From assembly GCF_030718205.1 (NCBI RefSeq), contig NZ_JAUZQF010000010.1, forward strand, positions 310,001 through 374,000: a stretch of DNA of 64,000 nt. The letters are read 5' to 3'. Below the pieces are notes generated by a model. It was given only the letters and a program-made list of their open reading frames with translations. It had not been told where the DNA came from and did not search any database. The translations under genes and the position numbers were made by a program. The stretch's first letter is position 1. Every line of letters starts with the position of its first letter. This document shows, in pieces, positions 187 to 34,977 of this stretch. The stretch comes from Nonomuraea turcica. Its GTDB lineage: Bacteria; Actinomycetota; Actinomycetes; Streptosporangiales; Streptosporangiaceae.

Positions 187-1554
187 TCACAGGAGGGCGA
201 AGCGGATCACTATGGGCATCGGTGCGCCGAGTTCGACGGACGTGACCAGGAGGCCGTCCGGCACGGCGTCGGCCCGTACCGGGAAATCGTCCAGGCGGAC
301 CGCCGTAGCAGGATCCAGCAGTCCCGGGCGAGTCTTCAGCAGGACTTGACCGCGGGCCGAGTCCGGGACGTCGGCGAGGAACGCGAAAGCGTGCCGGTCG
401 TCGTGGGTCCAGCGGATCCATGGGGCGCCGTCGCGTGGCGTGGCGTGCTTATGGTCGCGCTTGCTGCGGCCTCCGTTGGCTTCGTCCCTCGCTCTCTCCG
501 GCCTATCGCGCCGCTCCACGCCCAGGGGCCTGGTCGCGTGCACGGCGCGGCCGTGACCGGACATCCACGACGCGATGCCCTCCAGGACGGCGCGCTGCTC
601 GCCAGGCAGCGCGCCGTCGGCCTGCGGGCCGACGTTGAGCAGCAGGTTGCCGCCGCGTGAGGCGACGTCCACCAGCAGGCGGACGGCGCCTGCCGAGTCC
701 AGCAGGTGCTCAGGGCCCTCGTTCCTGTTGTAGCCGAAGGACAGGCCGATGCCGCGGCATTGCTCCCAGTGCGCGGCCGTCTCGTTCTGGCGGTTCGCCT
801 GGTATTCGCTGGTCAGGTAGTCGGCGTGAGCGCCGTCCCAGCGATCGTTGACCACGCCGTCCGGGACAGTGGCGTAATAGTGGTCGAACATGTCCTGCAG
901 GTCGGCCATGCCCGCGTCGGGCCACCCGATGTCGTTCCACAGCACGTCCGGCCGGTAACGGTCGATCAGATCGCGCACCTGGCGCAGCGCGTACGCGGCG
1001 TAGGCGGCCTCGTGAGGGCGGCACGCATCGATCAGATCCTCGTGGCGGATGACGGCCCGGCGGCCGGCGTGCCAGTCGAGCCCGCCGGAGTAGTACACAC
1101 CGAAACGAAGGTCGCGGGCCCGCGCCGCGGCGGCAAGATCGGCGACCAGGTCGCGATGCGGGCCGCGGCGGACCGTGTTGCGGGTGCCGGTGCCGGGCGC
1201 GTCCCACAGGGCGATGCCGTCGTGATGCTTGGTGGTCGGGACGACGTAGCGGGCTCCGGCGCGGGCGAACAACTCCATCCAGTCTGCGGGGTCGAAGAGC
1301 TCGGCCGTCCACGCGTCGAGGAAGTCGTCATAGGGAAGGCCGCCGTGCACGGTGCGGTGGTGCTCATGGGCGGGGCTGCCCTCGATCTGGCTGGTGTTCC
1401 AGTACCACTCGGCGTACGGATTGTGGGCGAACCACATCTCCGGGTTGACCGCCCCCAGCTCACCGGTGGGCTCGGCCCACGCCGGCACCGAGTACGCGCC
1501 CCAATGGATGAACACGCCGAACTTGGCGTCGGTGAACCAGGCCGGAACGGTCAT
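187..1554 (-). CDS. GH29 alpha-L-fucosidase
   Basis: Likely intracellular exo-alpha-L-fucosidase of family GH29, 455 aa with no signal peptide. The N-terminus (WFTDAKFGVFIHWGAYSVPAW) and the YAEWYWN and TKHHDG motifs are typical of the family. The Asp in RPDVLWNDIGWP fits the catalytic nucleophile. The ATG at 1554 was chosen because AAAGGAG sits just upstream; a longer form from 1605 would overlap the preceding permease gene. It is the last gene of a leftward operon (kinase, binding protein, two permeases, fucosidase). Oddity: about 25 residues near positions 345-372 interrupt the C-terminal beta-sandwich region and match an insert in the glutamate dehydrogenase of this window. Exact substrate linkage cannot be read from the sequence. 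Confidence 0.9.
   Translation of the reverse strand: MTVPAWFTDAKFGVFIHWGAYSVPAWAEPTGELGAVNPEMWFAHNPYAEWYWNTSQIEGSPAHEHHRTVHGGLPYDDFLDAWTAELFDPADWMELFARAGARYVVPTTKHHDGIALWDAPGTGTRNTVRRGPHRDLVADLAAAARARDLRFGVYYSGGLDWHAGRRAVIRHEDLIDACRPHEAAYAAYALRQVRDLIDRYRPDVLWNDIGWPDAGMADLQDMFDHYYATVPDGVVNDRWDGAHADYLTSEYQANRQNETAAHWEQCRGIGLSFGYNRNEGPEHLLDSAGAVRLLVDVASRGGNLLLNVGPQADGALPGEQRAVLEGIASWMSGHGRAVHATRPLGVERRDRPERARDEANGGRSKRDHKHATPRDGAPWIRWTHDDRHAFAFLADVPDSARGQVLLKTRPGLLDPATAVRLDDFPVRADAVPDGLLVTSVELGAPMPIVIRFALL
451..517 (-). repeat. In-frame dispersed repeat, copy A (inside the fucosidase)
   Basis: This stretch matches 29188-29254 at about 56 of 67 positions by hand count, in the same orientation. 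In the gene's reading frame both copies encode a related charged peptide: ERR, two residues, PE, one residue, AR, two residues, ANGG, three residues, RDH. The insert falls between the usual ATRP and IRWT segments of the GH29 C-terminal domain. The opposite strand is also open. The two host proteins are unrelated, so shared ancestry of the genes cannot explain the match. Confidence 0.8.
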
Positions 1555-1597
1555 GGCGCTCCTTTCACGATCACGGCCGCCCCACGAACGGTACAGG

Positions 1598-2425
1598 TCA
1601 CCCACGCAGCGCGCCCTTCATGGCGTCGCGGATGAAGCCGCGGGCGAACAGCACGAAGACCACCGCGAGAGGGAGAACGGCGACCAGCGCCCCCGTGAGG
1701 ACCAGGCTGTAATCCAGGTTGTGCACGGTGTTCAGCTGGGAGAGCGCGACCTGCAGGGTGAGGTTCGACGGGTCGACCATGACGATCAGCGGCCAGGTGT
1801 AGTCGTTCCAGGCGGCGATGAACGTGGTGATGCCGAGGAAGGCCAGGCCGGGCCGGATGGCGGGCAGCCCCACGTGCCAGTACTGCCGGAAGAACCCGCA
1901 GCCGTCGATGCGCGCCGCGGCGAGCACCTCGTCGGGCACCGCCCCCTTGATGTACTGACGCATCCAGAAGATGCCGAACGCGTTCGCGGCGGCCGGAACG
2001 ATCAGCGCGTTCAGCGTGCCCACCCAGCCCAGTTCCACCATGATCACAAATTGCGGGATGAGGGCGAGCTGCATCGGCAACATGTACGTGAGCAGCAGCA
2101 GGCCGAACAGCACCCGCCGCCCGGGGAACTCGTACTTGGCGAAGGCGAAGGCCGCGATCGAGTCGAAGAACAGGACGAGCGCGGTGGTGCAACACGCGAC
2201 GATCAGCGTGTTCAGCATCGAGCCGAAGAGGTCGATGGAGCTGATCAGCCGCCCGAGGTTATCGAACAGCGCCGGCCCGAAGGTTACCTTCGGCGGCACC
2301 TGGTACATGTCCTTGGTTGTGTTGGTCGCCATGACGGCGGTCCAATAGAACGGGAACAGCGAGACGAGCGCCCCCGCGACCAGAACGAGGTGCAGGGCGG
2401 CGGCCCTCAGCCGCGTGACGGTCAT
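1598..2425 (-). CDS. Carbohydrate ABC transporter permease (MalG type)
   Basis: Inner-membrane permease subunit of a CUT1-family sugar importer, 275 aa. It has about six membrane segments starting with LHLVLVAGALVSLFPF. The EAA loop (LAAARIDGCGFFRQYWHVGLP, residues about 165-185) would contact an ATPase supplied from elsewhere, since none is encoded in this operon. The ATG at 2425 overlaps the stop of the upstream permease gene (TGATG), implying translational coupling. A longer open frame to 2890 is only read-through over the upstream gene. It lies between the other permease gene and the fucosidase gene. Confidence 0.93.
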   Translation of the reverse strand: MTVTRLRAAALHLVLVAGALVSLFPFYWTAVMATNTTKDMYQVPPKVTFGPALFDNLGRLISSIDLFGSMLNTLIVACCTTALVLFFDSIAAFAFAKYEFPGRRVLFGLLLLTYMLPMQLALIPQFVIMVELGWVGTLNALIVPAAANAFGIFWMRQYIKGAVPDEVLAAARIDGCGFFRQYWHVGLPAIRPGLAFLGITTFIAAWNDYTWPLIVMVDPSNLTLQVALSQLNTVHNLDYSLVLTGALVAVLPLAVVFVLFARGFIRDAMKGALRG

Positions 2426-26130: not shown

Positions 26131-29100
26131 CTACGCCTCCGTGTGCGGGAGGTTGCTGGCGGCTACCAGCGTGCGGATGGCACGCAGCGCGACCGAGAGC
26201 GTGGCCAGGTCGAAGTTGTCGCTCTCCCAGATCTCCGACAACGTCTGCCTGGCCCGGGAGACGGCCGCGGAGTTGGCCTCGGACCAGCGGGCCAGCCGCT
26301 CCTCCGGGGGCAGCCCCGGCTTGCTGTGGGCCAGCACATCCCTGGTCAGCGAGGCGTGCGCGGCGTACAGGTCGTCGCGCAGGGCCGAGCGGGCCATGGA
26401 ATTCCACCGGTTGTCCCTGGGCAGGGCGATGATCCGCTCCCTGAGGCGGGCCATCTGGAGGCGGTCGGCCAGGTCGAAGTAGACCTCGCCGACCTCGTTG
26501 ACCGGCCGTCCCGTCAGCGAGGAGACCTCGACCAGATCCAGCGTGGAGTACGCGGGCACCATGCCGGCCACCCGCTCGGCCAGCTCCAGCGGCACGCCCC
26601 GGGCCACGAACGAGTCCCGGCGCTCCTCGTACGCCGCCAGGTCGGGCCCGGTGAGCATCTTCGGGATGTGCGCGACGAGCCCGTTGACGCCCTTCGTGAA
26701 GAAGCTGACGGAACCGGCCAGGTCGAGCGGCGGGCGCCGGTTGACCAGCAGCCAGCGGGTGCCGCGCTCGACGAGCTTGCGGGCCTCCAGCAACATGGCG
26801 ATCTGGACATCGGTGTTCACCTTGTTGTCCAGCGACTCCACGGCCCGGTAGAACGACGGCAGGTCGAAGACCTCCCGCGCCACCAGCCAGGCCCGCGCGA
26901 TGTCGGGCGTCGAGGCGCCGGTCTCCTCGGCGAAGCGGTGCATGAACGTGGTGCCCATGAAGTTGACCAGCTCGTTCACCGCACAGGTGGTGATGATCTC
27001 CCGCCGCAGCGGGTGCCCGTCCATGTAGGTCCTGAAGCGTTCCCGCAGGTCCGACGGGAAGTACGACACCAGCCACGACTCCAGGTACGGCTCGTCGGGC
27101 AGGTCGGAGGCGAGCAGCTCGGCGTCGGCCACCAGCTTGGTGTAGGCCAGCAGGACGGAGAACTCGGGCGCGGTGAGCCCGAGCCTGGCCTGGCGGCGCT
27201 CGGCCAGCGTCTTGTCCGAGGGCAGGAACTCCAGCTCCCGGTTGACCAGCCCTTCGCGCTCCAGCCGCCGCAGGTAGCGGGCGTGGATGTGGAGCATCTC
27301 GACGGACTGGGCACGGGCGGCGGCCAGGACCACGTTCTGCGCGTAGTTGTCCCGCAGCACCAGCGCCGCGACCTCGTCGGTCATCGAGGTGAAGACCTGG
27401 TTGCGCTGCTTGTCGGTCAGCTCGCCGTCCCGGACGACCTGGTCGAGCAGGATCTTGATGTTCACCTCGTGGTCGGAGGTGTCCACCCCGGCCGAGTTGT
27501 CGATGAAGTCGGTGTTGACCAGCCCGCCGTTCAGCGCGAACTCGATCCTGGCCAGCTGGGTGAAGCCCAGGTTGCCGCCCTCACCGACGACCTTGCAGCG
27601 CAGGTCGGCGGCGTTGACCCGGAGCGCGTCGTTGGCCTTGTCACCCACGTCGGTGTGGGACTCGGAGGCGGCCTTCACGTACGTGCCGATGCCGCCGTTC
27701 CACAGCAGGTCCACCGGGGCCCGCAGGATGGCGCTGATCAGGTCGTTCGGCGCCAGCGAGCTCACCCCGGCGGGGATGCCGAGCGCCTCGCGCATCTGAG
27801 CCGTGATCTGGATGGACTTGGCGGTACGCGGGAAGACGCCGCCGCCCGCCGAGATCATCTTGGTGTCGTAGTCCTCCCACGAGCTGCGCGGCAGGTTGAA
27901 CAGGCGCTGCCGCTCGGCGTACGAGCGGTCGGCGTCCGGGGACGGGTCCACGAAGATGTGCCGGTGGTCGAACGCGGCCACCAGCCGGATGTGCTGGGAC
28001 AGCAGCATGCCGTTGCCGAACACGTCGCCCGACATGTCGCCGATGCCGGCCACCGTGAAGTCGGTGGTCTGCGTGTCCACACCCATGGTGCGGAAGTGGT
28101 ATTTGACCGACTCCCACGCGCCCCGGGCGGTGATGCCCATGGCCTTGTGGTCGTAGCCGACGGACCCGCCGGAGGCGAACGCATCGCCCAGCCAGAACCC
28201 ATAGTCCTTGGCCACGCCGTTGGCGATGTCGGAGAAGGTGGCGGTGCCCTTGTCGGCCGCCACGACCAGGTAGGGGTCGTCGCCGTCGTGCCTGACTACG
28301 TCGGGCGGCGGCACGACCTTGCCGTCCACGAGGTTGTCGGTGACGTCCAGCAGCCCAGAGATGAAGGTCCGGTAGCAGGCCACGCCCTCGGCGAGCAGAG
28401 CCTCGCGAGTGCCGCCCACTGGCGGACGTTTCACGACAAATCCACCTTTGGACCCAGTCGGGACAATGACGGTGTTTTTCACCATCTGCGCCTTAACCAG
28501 GCCCAATATCTCCGTCCGGAAGTCCTCCATCCGATCGGACCACCGCAGCCCGCCGCGCGCCACCTTCCCGAATCGCAGATGCACGCCCTCGACCCGGGGC
28601 GAGTAAACGAATATCTCGAACTTCGGCCGCGGCAGCGGCAGCACACTGATGGCCTGCGGATCGAACTTAAGTGAAATGTACGATTTGCGCCGTCCATTTA
28701 CCGTTTGGAAGTAATTCGTCCTCAATGTCGCCTGAATCATCTCCAGGTACGCCCGGAGGATGCGGTCCTCGTCCAGCGAGGCCACCTCGTCCAGCGCCCC
28801 CAGGGCCTCCTCGTGCAGCGCATCCAGGAGCTCGGCCCGCACGTCGTCGCTCCGCCGCGGATCCAGCTTGGCCTCGAACAGGCTCACCAGCAGCCGCGCC
28901 AGCCGCACGTTGCCGTTCAGCACCCGCTCGATGTAGGACTGTGAGAACGTGCTCCCGGCCTGGCGCAGGTATGTGGCGTAGACCCGGAGGATCTCCACCT
29001 CCTCCCAGGTCAGCCCGGCCTGCAGGATGAGCGCGTTGAAGTCGTCGGCCTGCACCCGCCCCTTCCACAGCGCGGTGAGCCCGTCCTGGAACAGCCGCTT

Positions 29101-31119
29101 GAAGTCGTTCCTGTCCACCTCATCGGAGGGCGTGTAACGCAGCCCGAAGTCGTAGATCCAGGCGTTCTTGGTGTTGGGGGCGAGTTCATGGTCGCGCTCC
29201 CTCGGGCCTCCGTTGGCTTTGTTCCTCGCGCTCTCCGGCCCGGCTCGCCGCTCCGGGTCCCTTTCGATCTCGTAGGGCCGCTCGTCGACGACCTCGACGC
29301 CGAGCCGCTGGATCAGGGGCAGCGCCTGGGACAGCGAGATGGGCGAGCCGACTTTGTAGATCTTGAGCCGCCGCTCCCCCTCAGTCGCGTCGTACGGCTC
29401 GTAGAGGTTGATCCCGACCTGCTCGTCGTCGCCAGCGGCGGCGAGCTCCTCCAGGCGGCGCAGGTCCACGACGGCCACCTTGGGCGGGAAGTCCGCCTTG
29501 TATCCCTCGGGGAACGCGGACGCGTACCGCCGGATGAGCGCGGGCGACTCCTCCTCGGAGGTCATCTCCCCCAGCGCGGCGGCCAGGTCGTCCTCCCAGG
29601 AACGGGTGAGCGCGGCCAGCCTGGCCTCCAGCTCCTCCACGTCCCCGCTCGGCGGCGGCAGCTGCCTGCCCCGCTCGCCCCGCACCACCACGTGCAGCCG
29701 GGCGAGCACCGACTCGCCGATCATCGCGCTGTAGTCCAGCGACTTGCCGCCCAGGGCCTTGAGCAGCACCTCCTGCATCTTCAGCCGCACCTTGGTGGTG
29801 TAGCGGTCACGCGGCAGGTAGATCAGGCAGGAGATGTAGCGTCCGTAGTCGTCGCGCCGCAGGAACAGCTTGACCTGCTTGCGCTCACGCAGCCGCAACA
29901 CGCCCATGGCGATCGGCAGCAGCTGCTCGACGGAGGTCTGGAACAGCTCGTCGCGCGGGAACGTCTCGAGGATCTCGATCAGGTCCTTGCCGTCGTGGCT
30001 GTCGGGCTGCAGCCCGGCCGCGTCGAGCACGTCGGCCAGCTTGCGCCGCAGCACCGGGATCCTGGAGATCGACTCGTTGTAGGCGACATGCGTGAACAGG
30101 CCGAGGAAGCGCCGCTCCCCGATCACCTCGCCCTCGGGCGAGAACGTCTTGACCCCGATGTAGTCGAGGTAGGTCGCCCGGTGCACGGTGGCACGGGAGT
30201 TGGCCTTGGTGATGATCATCAGGTGCTTCTCGCGTGCCTTGGCCCGCACCTCGGGCGGCAACACGGAGAAGCTGGCCGAGCCGGGCCTGTCGTCACGCAG
30301 GATGCCCAGCGCCGCCCCCGGCAGCGAGCGCAGCGCCTCGCCTTCGTCGGTGTCCTCGAGCCGGTATTCCCGGTAACCGAGGAAGGTGAAGTGCCCGTCG
30401 GCCAGCCAGCGCAGCAGGTCGATGCTGTCCTCGACCTCTGCCGGCTCCAGCGGCGGCGGGTTCATGCTCAGGGCTTCGGCGGTCTGCACGGCCAGTGCCC
30501 GCATCTTCCTGAAGTCCTCGACGGCGTGGCGCACATCTTCGAGCACCCGCTGGAGGTCGGCCTCGAGTCCCTTGAGCACGGCGGGATCGGACTGCCGGTC
30601 GATCTCGATGTGCATCCACGACTCGACCAGCATCTGGCCGGTGACGTCCTCCTGGCCGCGGCCGAGCATGCGGCCCGTCATGTCGCGGCGCACCCGCATC
30701 TGCGGGTGGACCACCAGGTGGGTGCCCAGGTCGTGCCGGTCGAGCTCCATCGTCACCGAGTCGACGAGGAACGGCATGTCGTCGGTGACCACTTCGACCA
30801 CCGAGTGCCCCGGGTCCCAGCCGTGCTCCTCCAAGGTGGGCGCATAGGCCCGGACCACCGCCCGGCCCTGCGGGCGGACCTCGGCCAGCTGGCGTTGCGA
30901 CATCGCGGGGCCGTAAACGTCGACCGGGTTGCGGTCGAGCAGGTCCTCGGGCGCCACGTAACGGTAGTAGAACCGGAGGAAGGACAGCGCCTCCTCGGTG
31001 GTCACGTGTTCGCTGCTCGCCGCACAGCTCTCGGCGGCTCGCTGCAGCAGCTCATCCTTGGCCTCGTCGAGGGGCATCGTAGGTCTCACTCCTTTGTGAG
31101 GGTTCGCCGTGGCGTTCAT
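26131..31119 (-). CDS. gdhB: NAD-specific glutamate dehydrogenase, large 180-kDa type
   Basis: Cytoplasmic NAD-dependent glutamate dehydrogenase, 1662 aa, catabolising glutamate to 2-oxoglutarate and ammonia. A long N-terminal regulatory region (residues about 1-700, with ACT-like parts such as VVEVVTDDMPFLVDSVTMEL) precedes the catalytic core, marked by GGLRWSDRMEDFRTEILGL and PTGSKGGFVVKRPP. The C-terminal helical domain is intact. ATG 31119 overlaps the dioxygenase stop (ATGA). ATG 31077, with AAAGGAG 11 bases upstream, is the alternative. A charged insert near residues 620-645 matches the repeat in the fucosidase gene. Confidence 0.93.
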   Translation of the reverse strand: MNATANPHKGVRPTMPLDEAKDELLQRAAESCAASSEHVTTEEALSFLRFYYRYVAPEDLLDRNPVDVYGPAMSQRQLAEVRPQGRAVVRAYAPTLEEHGWDPGHSVVEVVTDDMPFLVDSVTMELDRHDLGTHLVVHPQMRVRRDMTGRMLGRGQEDVTGQMLVESWMHIEIDRQSDPAVLKGLEADLQRVLEDVRHAVEDFRKMRALAVQTAEALSMNPPPLEPAEVEDSIDLLRWLADGHFTFLGYREYRLEDTDEGEALRSLPGAALGILRDDRPGSASFSVLPPEVRAKAREKHLMIITKANSRATVHRATYLDYIGVKTFSPEGEVIGERRFLGLFTHVAYNESISRIPVLRRKLADVLDAAGLQPDSHDGKDLIEILETFPRDELFQTSVEQLLPIAMGVLRLRERKQVKLFLRRDDYGRYISCLIYLPRDRYTTKVRLKMQEVLLKALGGKSLDYSAMIGESVLARLHVVVRGERGRQLPPPSGDVEELEARLAALTRSWEDDLAAALGEMTSEEESPALIRRYASAFPEGYKADFPPKVAVVDLRRLEELAAAGDDEQVGINLYEPYDATEGERRLKIYKVGSPISLSQALPLIQRLGVEVVDERPYEIERDPERRAGPESARNKANGGPRERDHELAPNTKNAWIYDFGLRYTPSDEVDRNDFKRLFQDGLTALWKGRVQADDFNALILQAGLTWEEVEILRVYATYLRQAGSTFSQSYIERVLNGNVRLARLLVSLFEAKLDPRRSDDVRAELLDALHEEALGALDEVASLDEDRILRAYLEMIQATLRTNYFQTVNGRRKSYISLKFDPQAISVLPLPRPKFEIFVYSPRVEGVHLRFGKVARGGLRWSDRMEDFRTEILGLVKAQMVKNTVIVPTGSKGGFVVKRPPVGGTREALLAEGVACYRTFISGLLDVTDNLVDGKVVPPPDVVRHDGDDPYLVVAADKGTATFSDIANGVAKDYGFWLGDAFASGGSVGYDHKAMGITARGAWESVKYHFRTMGVDTQTTDFTVAGIGDMSGDVFGNGMLLSQHIRLVAAFDHRHIFVDPSPDADRSYAERQRLFNLPRSSWEDYDTKMISAGGGVFPRTAKSIQITAQMREALGIPAGVSSLAPNDLISAILRAPVDLLWNGGIGTYVKAASESHTDVGDKANDALRVNAADLRCKVVGEGGNLGFTQLARIEFALNGGLVNTDFIDNSAGVDTSDHEVNIKILLDQVVRDGELTDKQRNQVFTSMTDEVAALVLRDNYAQNVVLAAARAQSVEMLHIHARYLRRLEREGLVNRELEFLPSDKTLAERRQARLGLTAPEFSVLLAYTKLVADAELLASDLPDEPYLESWLVSYFPSDLRERFRTYMDGHPLRREIITTCAVNELVNFMGTTFMHRFAEETGASTPDIARAWLVAREVFDLPSFYRAVESLDNKVNTDVQIAMLLEARKLVERGTRWLLVNRRPPLDLAGSVSFFTKGVNGLVAHIPKMLTGPDLAAYEERRDSFVARGVPLELAERVAGMVPAYSTLDLVEVSSLTGRPVNEVGEVYFDLADRLQMARLRERIIALPRDNRWNSMARSALRDDLYAAHASLTRDVLAHSKPGLPPEERLARWSEANSAAVSRARQTLSEIWESDNFDLATLSVALRAIRTLVAASNLPHTEA
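29188..29254 (-). repeat. In-frame dispersed repeat, copy B (inside glutamate dehydrogenase)
   Basis: Homologous to 451-517, same strand relative to its gene and same codon phase. It encodes ERR, two residues, PE, one residue, AR, two residues, ANGG, three residues, RDH. It sits between VDERPYEI and AWIYDFGLRY, two segments that are nearly adjacent in other actinobacterial glutamate dehydrogenases as I remember them. The open frame is preserved on both sides. Confidence 0.8.
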
Positions 31120-31919
31120 AGCCAGGCCCTTAGTTCCCACAGCAGCGGGAAGTAGTGCAGGCGCGCCCTACTGCGCAGATAGGGCGCGCCGGTCGAGCCG
31201 CCGGTGCCGGACTTGGTGCCGATCTGGCGTTCGACCATCTGAACGTGACGCATCCGCCACAGTGCGGTGGTCTCGTCGTGGGTGAGGAGGTCCTCGGCCA
31301 GCTGCCACAGGTCGTCGTGGGACCGGCGGTCTCTGGCCACGGCCAGCAGCGAGGCCATGATCTCGTCGTCCGAGACCGGCAGGCCACGCTGGGCGAGGGC
31401 GGCGAGGTAAGCATCCCACAATGTGGGCTCCTCCAGCCTGCGGCGCAGCCTGGTGAGCTCGGTGTCCGAGGCATGGCGGAAGCTGCCGACGTAGCGCTCG
31501 TCCTTCAGCCCCGACAGGAACTCCAGCTCGCGGAACTGCACCGACTGGAACCCGCTGGCCGGCGCCAGCTTCGCGCGGAACACCAGGAAGTCCTGAGGCG
31601 TCATCGTCTCCAGGACCTCGATCTGCTCGATCAGCACCCGCTCGACCGCGTGCACCCGCTGGAACAGGTGCCTGGCCTGCCACAGCTCGCCGCCGAACAT
31701 GGCGGCGCGAGCGGCCTCCAACTCGTGGAGCAGCAGCTTGAACCACAGCTCGTAGACCTGGTGGATGGTGATGAAGAGCAGCTCGTCCGGCGCCTCGGAC
31801 TGCGGCTGCTGCTGCGCGAGCAACGCGGGCAGGCAAAGGTAGCCGCCGTACGACAGCCGGCCGCCTTCCTCTCCGAACTGCCGATCCGGGGGACCGGGCG
31901 CATCACCGTCGATGCCCAC
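31116..31919 (-). CDS. kynA: Tryptophan 2,3-dioxygenase
   Basis: Heme enzyme opening the tryptophan ring to N-formylkynurenine, 267 aa. LSYGGYLCL near residue 20 and FITIHQVYELWFKLLLHE (distal His) near residue 50 are typical. WRMRHVQMVERQIG then TKSGTGGSTGAPYL carries the proximal His and substrate-binding Thr/Gly loop. GTG 31919 is chosen because GGAGG lies six bases upstream. It overlaps the glutamate dehydrogenase gene by ATGA, so the two are coupled. No other kynurenine-pathway gene is in the window. Confidence 0.93.
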   Translation of the reverse strand: MGIDGDAPGPPDRQFGEEGGRLSYGGYLCLPALLAQQQPQSEAPDELLFITIHQVYELWFKLLLHELEAARAAMFGGELWQARHLFQRVHAVERVLIEQIEVLETMTPQDFLVFRAKLAPASGFQSVQFRELEFLSGLKDERYVGSFRHASDTELTRLRRRLEEPTLWDAYLAALAQRGLPVSDDEIMASLLAVARDRRSHDDLWQLAEDLLTHDETTALWRMRHVQMVERQIGTKSGTGGSTGAPYLRSRARLHYFPLLWELRAWL

Positions 31920-33511: not shown

Positions 33512-34977
33512 GTAGATCCAGACGCATGGCCGCGGCCGCGTCCGTCCTGGCCATGGCGGCCACCGGGCTGGTGTCCGCGGCCGTGATCGGCGTCGGCCCG
33601 GCGATCGCCGACCACTGCGTCCCCGGAGAGGCCACCGCGAGCCCGAGCCCCTCGGCGCAGCAGCGGAACGGGAACCAGAACCAGCAGGATCAAGACCAGC
33701 AACCGGACCAAGGACAGCAACCGGACCAGGGCCAGCAGCAGGACCAAGGACAGCAACCGGACCAGGGCCAGCAGCAGGACCAAGGACAGCAACCGGACCA
33801 GGGCCAGCAGGAAGGCACCGGCCAGCAGCAGGACGCCGATCAGCAGGCTCCCCAGGGCGGCGGCGCCGCGATCCTGGACCCGGCCGCGTCTCCCGCCCCT
33901 GAGGGCGACGGCCAGACGCAGACCCCCGAGGGCGACGACCAGGCCCAGGCTCCCGAGGAGGAGCAGAGCGCCTCGACGTTCTCCCGCCGCGGCCGGCCCA
34001 CCAGGACGGCCACACCGACCCCGACGCAGTCCGAGACCCCCGACGAGCAGCCGAGCGGAACCGCGTCGCCCTCGCCCACCGAGACCGGGAACGGCGAGGA
34101 GGAGGCGTGCGCCGACCTCGGCCCCTTCCCCGAGGACTTCATCGACATCCGCCAGGTCCCGCCGCGCCAGCTCGGCGCGCGGATCGGCAGGAGCGGCTCG
34201 CGCGGCACGTTCGTCTCCCAGTGCGGCCGCAACGAGAACCGCCACAACAACCCCGACAACTTCATCGTCGCCCCCGGCGTGAGCAACGGGGCGCACCACC
34301 TGCACGACTACGTGGGCAACGTGTCGACGGACGCGTTCTCCACCGATGAGAGCCTGGCGGCGGCGGGCACCACCTGCCGGCTGAACGACCGGTCAACCTA
34401 CTTCTGGCCCGTGCTCAGAGACCGCAACTCGGACCAGAACTCCAACGACCCCGACGGCAACGTCGGCCAGGCGCTGACGGCCCGCGCGGTGCAGCTGCAG
34501 TTCCGCGGCAACGCGACCTCCAGGGTCGTCGCCATGCCGAGGTTCCTCAGGCTGATCACCGGTGACGCCAAGGCCGCCACCAACGGCGGGGCCAACGCGC
34601 GGGCCGCGTGGAGCTGCACGGGATTCCAAAACCGTATAGCGACCGACAAATACCCGCTTTGCCCGCGCGGCAGCCTCGTTCTTCGTATTCTGGACTTCCC
34701 CAGTTGCTGGGACGGTCAGAACACCGACAGCGCCAACCACCGCACACACGTGGTCTTCCCCGGCCAGAACGGTGCTTGTCCTCAGGGCACTCGGGCGATT
34801 CCGCAGCTTCGCATGACCCTCGCGTACTCCGTGCCGCAGGGCCAGTCATTCGCGGTGGACGCCTTCCCTGAGCAGAAGCACAACCCGGTCACCGACCACG
34901 CCGACTTCGCCAACGTCATGCCCGATCGGCTGATGCGCTTCGTCGTCGATTGCATCAACCGGGGCCGCCGTTGCTGA
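33508..34977 (+). CDS. Secreted DUF1996 protein with a Gln-rich repeat linker
   Basis: Exported protein of 489 aa with a perfect AAGGAG site before ATG 33508. A signal peptide (residues 1-35) is followed by a low-complexity region of PDQGQQ repeats (about 60-105) and a Pro/Glu-rich linker (120-195). The C-terminal DUF1996 domain (about 215-489) includes FVSQCGRNENRHNNPDNFI, GAHHLHDYVGN and HRTHVVFPGQNG, with several conserved His and Cys. DUF1996 proteins are secreted in fungi and actinobacteria and have no clear biochemical role. Coupled to DUF4142 by ATGA. Confidence 0.9.
   Translation: MSRSRRMAAAASVLAMAATGLVSAAVIGVGPAIADHCVPGEATASPSPSAQQRNGNQNQQDQDQQPDQGQQPDQGQQQDQGQQPDQGQQQDQGQQPDQGQQEGTGQQQDADQQAPQGGGAAILDPAASPAPEGDGQTQTPEGDDQAQAPEEEQSASTFSRRGRPTRTATPTPTQSETPDEQPSGTASPSPTETGNGEEEACADLGPFPEDFIDIRQVPPRQLGARIGRSGSRGTFVSQCGRNENRHNNPDNFIVAPGVSNGAHHLHDYVGNVSTDAFSTDESLAAAGTTCRLNDRSTYFWPVLRDRNSDQNSNDPDGNVGQALTARAVQLQFRGNATSRVVAMPRFLRLITGDAKAATNGGANARAAWSCTGFQNRIATDKYPLCPRGSLVLRILDFPSCWDGQNTDSANHRTHVVFPGQNGACPQGTRAIPQLRMTLAYSVPQGQSFAVDAFPEQKHNPVTDHADFANVMPDRLMRFVVDCINRGRRC
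33708..33811 (+). repeat. 36-bp tandem repeat in the DUF1996 linker
   Basis: Nearly identical 36-base units begin at 33708, 33744 and 33780; the third is incomplete. Each encodes a 12-residue Gln/Asp-rich unit built on DQGQQ. The near identity implies recent slippage or gene conversion, so copy number may vary between strains. Confidence 0.85.

Follow-up and report, generated by a model that had tools for sequence, protein, structure and literature searches.

A small dispersed repeat of Nonomuraea lies in frame in unrelated enzyme genes

Results

Two enzyme genes share an in-frame stretch of DNA

The window (the whole 64,000-nucleotide stretch analysed) holds two unrelated enzyme genes with nearly the same short stretch of DNA, and we asked whether this likeness reflects chance, common descent or a mobile repeat. 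The stretches at 451-517 and 29188-29254 were identical at 56 of 67 bases (83.6%), close to the figure of about 84% in the first-pass annotation, and the extended pair, 442-517 versus 29179-29254, was identical at 62 of 76 (81.6%). Both copies lie on the minus strand and share the codon phase GAG CGG CG. and the peptide ERR...ANGG...RDH; the common orientation, phase and charged peptide described earlier were thus all recovered. The length of 67 bp given for the element was too short; the match itself is real, and the unit extends approximately from (C)GGAGCGG to GACCAT-NRRCAC. In a whole-genome search with the GDH copy and its flanks as the query, the fucosidase copy was retrieved with E = 3.1e-14, indicating that the likeness is no chance match. 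A profile search of the window gave only the fucosidase and GDH copies at E < 0.9 (Table 1).

Table 1. Element copies, stem arms and host genes in the window
Feature	Position	Strand	Remark
First element copy (subfamily A), in-frame within the fucosidase gene	444..517	-	With flanking codons: VERRDRPERARDEANGGRSKRDHKHA
Variable stem of the first copy, 3' arm (GGCC)	468..471	-	Stem type GGCC/GGCC
Variable stem of the first copy, 5' arm (GGCC)	500..503	-	Stem type GGCC/GGCC
Host gene 1, GH29 alpha-L-fucosidase	187..1605	-	PF01120, residues 16-352
Second element copy (subfamily A), in-frame within GDH	29181..29254	-	With flanking codons: DPERRAGPESARNKANGGPRERDHELA
Variable stem of the second copy, 3' arm (GGCCC)	29204..29208	-	Read from sequence
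Variable stem of the second copy, 5' arm (GGGCC)	29237..29241	-	Read from sequence
Host gene 2, large NAD-glutamate dehydrogenase (GDH)	26131..31140	-	PF05088/PF21073-PF21079

The fucosidase copy is located after the catalytic domain (the structure PDB 1hl8 aligned to residue 358), and the fucosidase of a second genome of the same species has 22 fewer residues at this point. Hereafter, this second genome is called G046 and the present genome (12.66 Mb) G000. The GDH copy splits the ACT3 domain between two predicted strands; PF21077 was matched over positions 2-57 of 80 and ends at residue 630. The best matches of the window GDH among named relatives were 83-88% identical, which puts the window in Nonomuraea. 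Its loop contains 36 residues compared with 12 in G046; i.e., the copy adds exactly 24 residues. We fetched 80 GDH homologues, of which the site was readable in 64 and 16 were not read; in 63 of the 64, the loop had 8-14 residues, N. rhodomycinica being the exception with 25 unrelated ones. These lengths, together with the shorter conspecific fucosidase, bear out the earlier statement that homologues have a short loop. No element match was found in any of the 80 named GDH loci, and the 64 readable sites lack the element; therefore, the GDH insertion is the derived state. In the solved GDH 7a1d, five residues lie, by sequence, between the two aligned stretches at the insert point. An AlphaFold2 model of GDH residues 424-800, built from 30 sequences, had a mean confidence of 88, and the insert, mostly at a confidence below 50, sits in it between one strand and the next. 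Elsewhere in the window, 33646-33858 is a coding tandem repeat with an 18-bp period, rich in Gln, Asp and Gly.

The element is dispersed through the genome and the genus

The query of the GDH copy with its flanks matched at least 49 places in G000 at E up to 1 (itself included, some of them short, 40 of 104 candidates being scored), the best match other than itself having E = 1.1e-16. A query from a second subfamily matched 35 places in G000 at E up to 0.1. A covariance model built from 25 copies gave 40 matches in G000 and 56 in G046. Across the genus, 44 of 54 Nonomuraea genomes, including G000 and G046, had at least one match at E <= 0.001; the number of copies ranged from 0 to 56 per genome, and these counts are lower bounds because 88 candidates were scored in each genome. 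In a family sample of 150 genomes (our own included), at least 16 matched at E <= 1e-4 with 31 candidates scored, namely six Nonomuraea genomes and ten genomes from five other genera, each of these ten having one or two weak matches. In a class sample of 296 genomes, at least three matched at E <= 1e-5 with 16 candidates scored, and all three belong to this family. Further copies, as a dispersed element would leave them, thus occur both in the host genome and in relatives of its family, and some sites are common to several species and even genera.

A search of phages and plasmids gave no match, and neither did a search of viral contigs with one 29-base core of subfamily B; a fuzzy pattern scan for copies returned chance matches for the most part. 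In other genera (L245-L247, about 1500-1575), a divergent copy lies at a conserved location, with a tRNA gene about 75 bp away.

Filled and empty alleles occur within one species

We grouped the 56 matches of G046 by hand into 33 sites, 18 of which are common to G000. Flank probes for 23 sites, nine found in G000 only and 14 in G046 only, were then searched in both genomes. An empty counterpart was found at 18 sites (eight G000-only, ten G046-only), 17 of them with a readable length, and none of the 18 empty loci contained an element match at E <= 1. Flank identity was 95-99% at most filled and empty pairs and lower at C93 (94/98%), the fucosidase site (91/90%), g181 (85/87%), g184 (85/92%) and g199 (83/94%); the last was counted as empty as it has no element, its flanks being too diverged for a length. 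No empty site could be read with probes g178, g183, g187 and g207, L194 was outside the probe set, and C71a and L010/L194, which are array contractions, were left out of the count of empty sites.

Alignment of homologues, proposed earlier as a check, thus revealed empty sites both in the conspecific genome and in other species. Target duplications were sought at the insertion boundaries as well, and the filled and empty pairs showed no fixed duplication; two candidates, CACGGAG at g190 and CTGA at C71b, may be true duplications or may reflect chance homology. A few target bases were often replaced at insertion sites. Other species also have the element at g191, g193 and g181 (L157, L161 and L150); for this reason, and because of the PEPCK remnants described below, some empty sites may be losses rather than places that were never filled.

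The unit has constant ends and a covarying stem

The unit measures about 72-77 bp and is frequently tandem. It has a conserved head, (C)GGAGCGG, and a conserved tail, GACCAT-N-R-R-C-A-C, and nothing outside them was conserved in 44 left and 48 right independent flanks. The constant tail is GACCATNRRCAC; as regards terminal inverted repeats, the head GGAGCGG is the inverse of this tail over only a few bases. No target tetranucleotide was found in the 44 left flanks, in which only position -1 was informative (C in 32).

Within arrays, the units are spaced by 72 bases in subfamily A (C65) and by about 74-77 in others. The same methyltransferase gene contains a single unit in G000 and a pair of units in G046, in frame in both genomes; arrays change within the species. 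Two contig ends of G000 (the start of C30 and the end of C65) break within such an array and correspond to a single place in G046. Two variants of the unit were also noted: the 3' end of the element occurs alone in tandem with a 27-bp unit at L024 (about 1172-1331; L208 of G046 has three units), and L054 (about 1480-1527) has GGGGC-GGA-GCCCC with no long loop, perhaps a short or deleted form.

The arms of the stem differ among copies and yet remain complementary (GGGGC/GCCCC, GGCCC/GGGCC, GGCC/GGCC, CGGTCC/GGACCG, CGGCCCCG/CGGGGCCG and others). Over 90 arm pairs, own arms had a mean of 5.16 paired bases compared with 4.27 +/- 0.09 when arms were exchanged (300 shuffles, maximum 4.50). After thinning to 23 arms, in which shifted windows count as different and several copies of one subfamily are kept, the values were 5.00 and 4.11 +/- 0.16 (1000 shuffles, maximum 4.65); both sets of figures are generous because the copies are related. 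The test left out three of 123 units, and in a few units the best-paired stretch was not the expected stem. The longest paired stretch per unit was 3-8 bp.

Copies inside genes favour one reading frame

A site was scored as inside a gene when, in the empty allele, it was preceded by an open frame of 60 codons or more, with G or C in 85% of the third positions, and followed by 10 codons or more. By this test, eight of the 18 polymorphic sites lie inside a gene and ten do not. At the eight, the net gain was a multiple of three in seven, and seven copies were in sense and one in antisense orientation. Six sense copies lie in genes for an inositol-monophosphatase family protein (C23b, net 75), a Gfo/Idh oxidoreductase (C48, net 78), NAD-glutamate dehydrogenase (gdh, net 72), alpha-L-fucosidase (fuc, net 66), an acyl-CoA dehydrogenase (g204, net 81) and a GH9 cellulase (g191, net 75). 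The antisense copy, in a polysaccharide lyase 8 gene (C71b), is in frame and 32 codons before the stop, and the copy in a gene with no family name (C45) adds a net 74, a length not divisible by three, and alters the 12 codons at the end of the gene. Site g181 (net +78), which may be in-gene in a short frame, was kept outside this count.

Six sites lie deep in their genes, with at least 83 codons remaining; all six copies are in sense and read in the GAG-CGG frame (GAG-CAG in g191). On length alone, the chance of a multiple of three at six sites is (1/3)^6, approximately 0.001. Of 118 units, 57 had the GAG-CGG frame open; the two remaining sense frames were free of stops in 84 and 60 units, and each antisense frame in 100-102. 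The GAG-CGG frame was also the most hydrophilic, with a mean of -1.84 compared with -0.23 to +0.24 for the antisense frames. Subfamily B, which has stops in the GAG-CGG frame, was seen by eye at none of the six deep-gene sites. These frame data fit the survival of harmless hydrophilic loops.

Sense orientation is not a rule, since antisense copies lie in frame both at C71b and at a site shared by L023 and L179, the latter within an MPAB/rubber-oxygenase domain. At L178, an antisense frame is open across three units. Harmlessness is not universal, as seen at C45 and at L200/L214; in the latter, the match to cytochrome bd subunit II ends at the element copy, and the gene therefore looks broken or shifted. 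Altogether, 14 distinct host genes with in-frame sense copies were found, two of them (L150 and L153) without a named family; this count includes sites from a search with the sense-frame peptide, which are sense by choice. With these genes, the additional genomic copies and the orthologous empty sites, the first-pass description of a dispersed element inserted in frame holds.

One site in PEPCK is filled, empty or partly filled

PEPCK was present in 54 of 54 Nonomuraea genomes. Among 30 PEPCK loci, three (G016, G004 and G049) have a full element at IEER|G.F, with exactly 24 residues or 72 bp more, two have tail-like in-frame remnants (RDHEHS in G006 and RDHA in G050), one (G051) has other extra residues at the same point and 24 are empty. 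In another genus, three genomes are filled at this point, one of them with two units and a part. The filled rows are scattered on the PEPCK tree, which implies frequent loss of an old insertion or repeated hits on the site, and the pattern argues against the view that every empty site was never filled. The element also occurs at the end of the PEPCK gene, as two units and a part in G000 (L010, 1218-1364) and only as a part in G046 (L194, 580-606).

Discussion

A probable mobile repeat and the rival explanations

Each of the two stretches is probably a copy of one small mobile repeat of Nonomuraea that is non-autonomous and behaves as follows. The element inserts with neither a fixed target sequence nor a regular duplication of the target, and an enzyme supplied in trans, most likely one that reads a folded single strand, would move it. 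Arrays grow and shrink by whole units. Copies inside genes are seen mostly where a stop-free, hydrophilic sense frame with a length that is a multiple of three yields a floppy loop; the insert is presumably translated, and selection would give rise to the frame bias.

A version in which the family is tuned to genes, the stop-free hydrophilic sense frame and near-multiple-of-three unit of its genic subfamilies providing a harmless disordered loop and a non-Y1 enzyme moving it without a target sequence, is a doubtful possibility; it is weakened by the existence of antisense in-frame copies.

The element might instead be of the REP/REPIN type or derived from IS200/IS605 and owe its movement to a Y1 (HUH) transposase, for example a RAYT, an alternative that we hold only tentatively. 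The short hairpin, the head-to-tail arrays and the lack of fixed target duplications and long terminal inverted repeats would suit such an enzyme. Matches to Y1 transposase (PF01797, which divergent RAYTs could escape) numbered 13 in G000 and occurred in 34 of 54 Nonomuraea genomes, including 12 of the 13 genomes with 10 or more element copies. However, the Y1 count correlated poorly with the element count over the 54 genomes (Spearman 0.24, p 0.08; for genome size, rho 0.28, p 0.04); no Y1 match was found in G051 despite its 10 copies, while G020, G012 and G019 have 17, 12 and 10 Y1 matches, respectively, and no copy. The cognate RAYT gene of REP/REPIN elements often lies beside copies, and IS200/IS605 elements insert 3' of a fixed tetra- or pentanucleotide. 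In eight of the 13 Y1 loci of G000, no element was found within about 1.5 kb, and, unlike at IS200/IS605 insertions, the left flanks have no fixed target, only the C at -1 (32/44). A Y1 partner is thus unsupported, as the counts do not track each other and the eight loci have no adjacent copies. We also searched for a coding partner marked by an orphan copy of the exact tail, AGCGCGACCATNNNCA, which occurs at 23 places in G000 and 27 in G046; none was found with this exact pattern in the two genomes, where a divergent tail would be missed, and the three G000 places off known copies were plain coding DNA.

It is unlikely that no dedicated enzyme is involved and that copies arise by template switching during replication or short-homology recombination, with expansion by slippage. 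Such events could explain why target bases are often replaced and arrays change by whole units, and the flanks may share homology with the ends of the element (CACGGAG at g190, CTGA at C71b and GAGCGC in PEPCK). Nevertheless, the constant ends at many independent sites (44 left and 48 right flanks) and the compensatory changes in the stem point to recognition of the element itself.

That the repeat is mainly a transcribed structured RNA, a regulatory or stability element occasionally caught in genes, appears quite improbable. Pairing is kept, with some G-T pairs seen by eye, and ten of the 18 polymorphic sites are outside genes; however, a search of Rfam with the element gave no known RNA family, single copies folded no better than shuffles (five copies, z -0.3 to 1.7) and the copy number varies from 0 to 56 within one genus. 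Finally, an ordinary vertically inherited loop or chance similarity, which the sites common to species and even genera might suggest, is ruled out for the window copies by the genome-wide family (E = 1.1e-16 and 3.1e-14) and the empty sites of the same species at both.

Comparison with known repeat families

In-frame mobile palindromic repeats in conserved enzymes are best known from Rickettsia, in which the small genomes are usually blamed. The hosts here are free-living soil actinomycetes whose genomes span roughly 8-14 Mb, and the enzymes concerned include central ones such as GDH and PEPCK. Because two conspecific genomes differ, filled and empty alleles of one enzyme can be compared directly, and the cost of the inserts, the retention of the peptide and the movement of the DNA become testable. 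For annotators, stretches of the type ERR..ANGG..RDH in Nonomuraea proteins represent dispersed DNA, not domains.

Rickettsia palindromic elements are dispersed in unrelated genes, and conserved enzymes retain them in frame as an additional peptide; the elements measure 105-146 bp or about 150 bp and have long stem-loops and terminal inverted repeats (PMC2229807, PMC10969869). The Nonomuraea element is similar in lying in frame in unrelated protein genes and differs in its unit of 72-77 bp, its short covarying stem without long terminal repeats, its tandem arrays and its free-living, high-G+C host. The Rickettsia precedent named in the first-pass annotation, compared by description, is therefore apt for the behaviour of the element and not for its length and structure.

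REP/REPIN sequences are small hairpin repeats of 20-40 bp with a GTAG or CGTC tag at one end, an uneven copy number among relatives and some intragenic copies (PMC3733652). The Nonomuraea repeat resembles them in its small size, hairpin, uneven copy number and presence in some genes, whereas its ends, (C)GGAGCGG and NRRCAC, lack GTAG/CGTC and it shows no clear tie to a Y1 transposase in the counts over 54 genomes. Like the MITEs Correia/NEMIS and ERIC, it is non-autonomous, both intergenic and intragenic, and in some cases fused to reading frames; unlike MITEs of the DDE type, it has neither terminal inverted repeats nor a regular target duplication. The open-frame form of Correia is the intragenic one (PMC2229807), and the absence of the stop-bearing subfamily B from the deep-gene Nonomuraea sites is similar to that extent. 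In summary of these comparisons, the element behaves like a Rickettsia palindromic element, and no family definition that we tried fits it fully. In searches of open-access literature, no listed title or abstract opening described such an element in Nonomuraea or its family, and the suggestion that it may be undescribed stands within that scope, most subscription papers lying outside it.

A second, longer repeat family hosts copies of the element at CGGCTG|GGCCCTCC (L014, L019, L180, L183, L184 and L187), and G046 also has a copy of this longer family without the element (L223).
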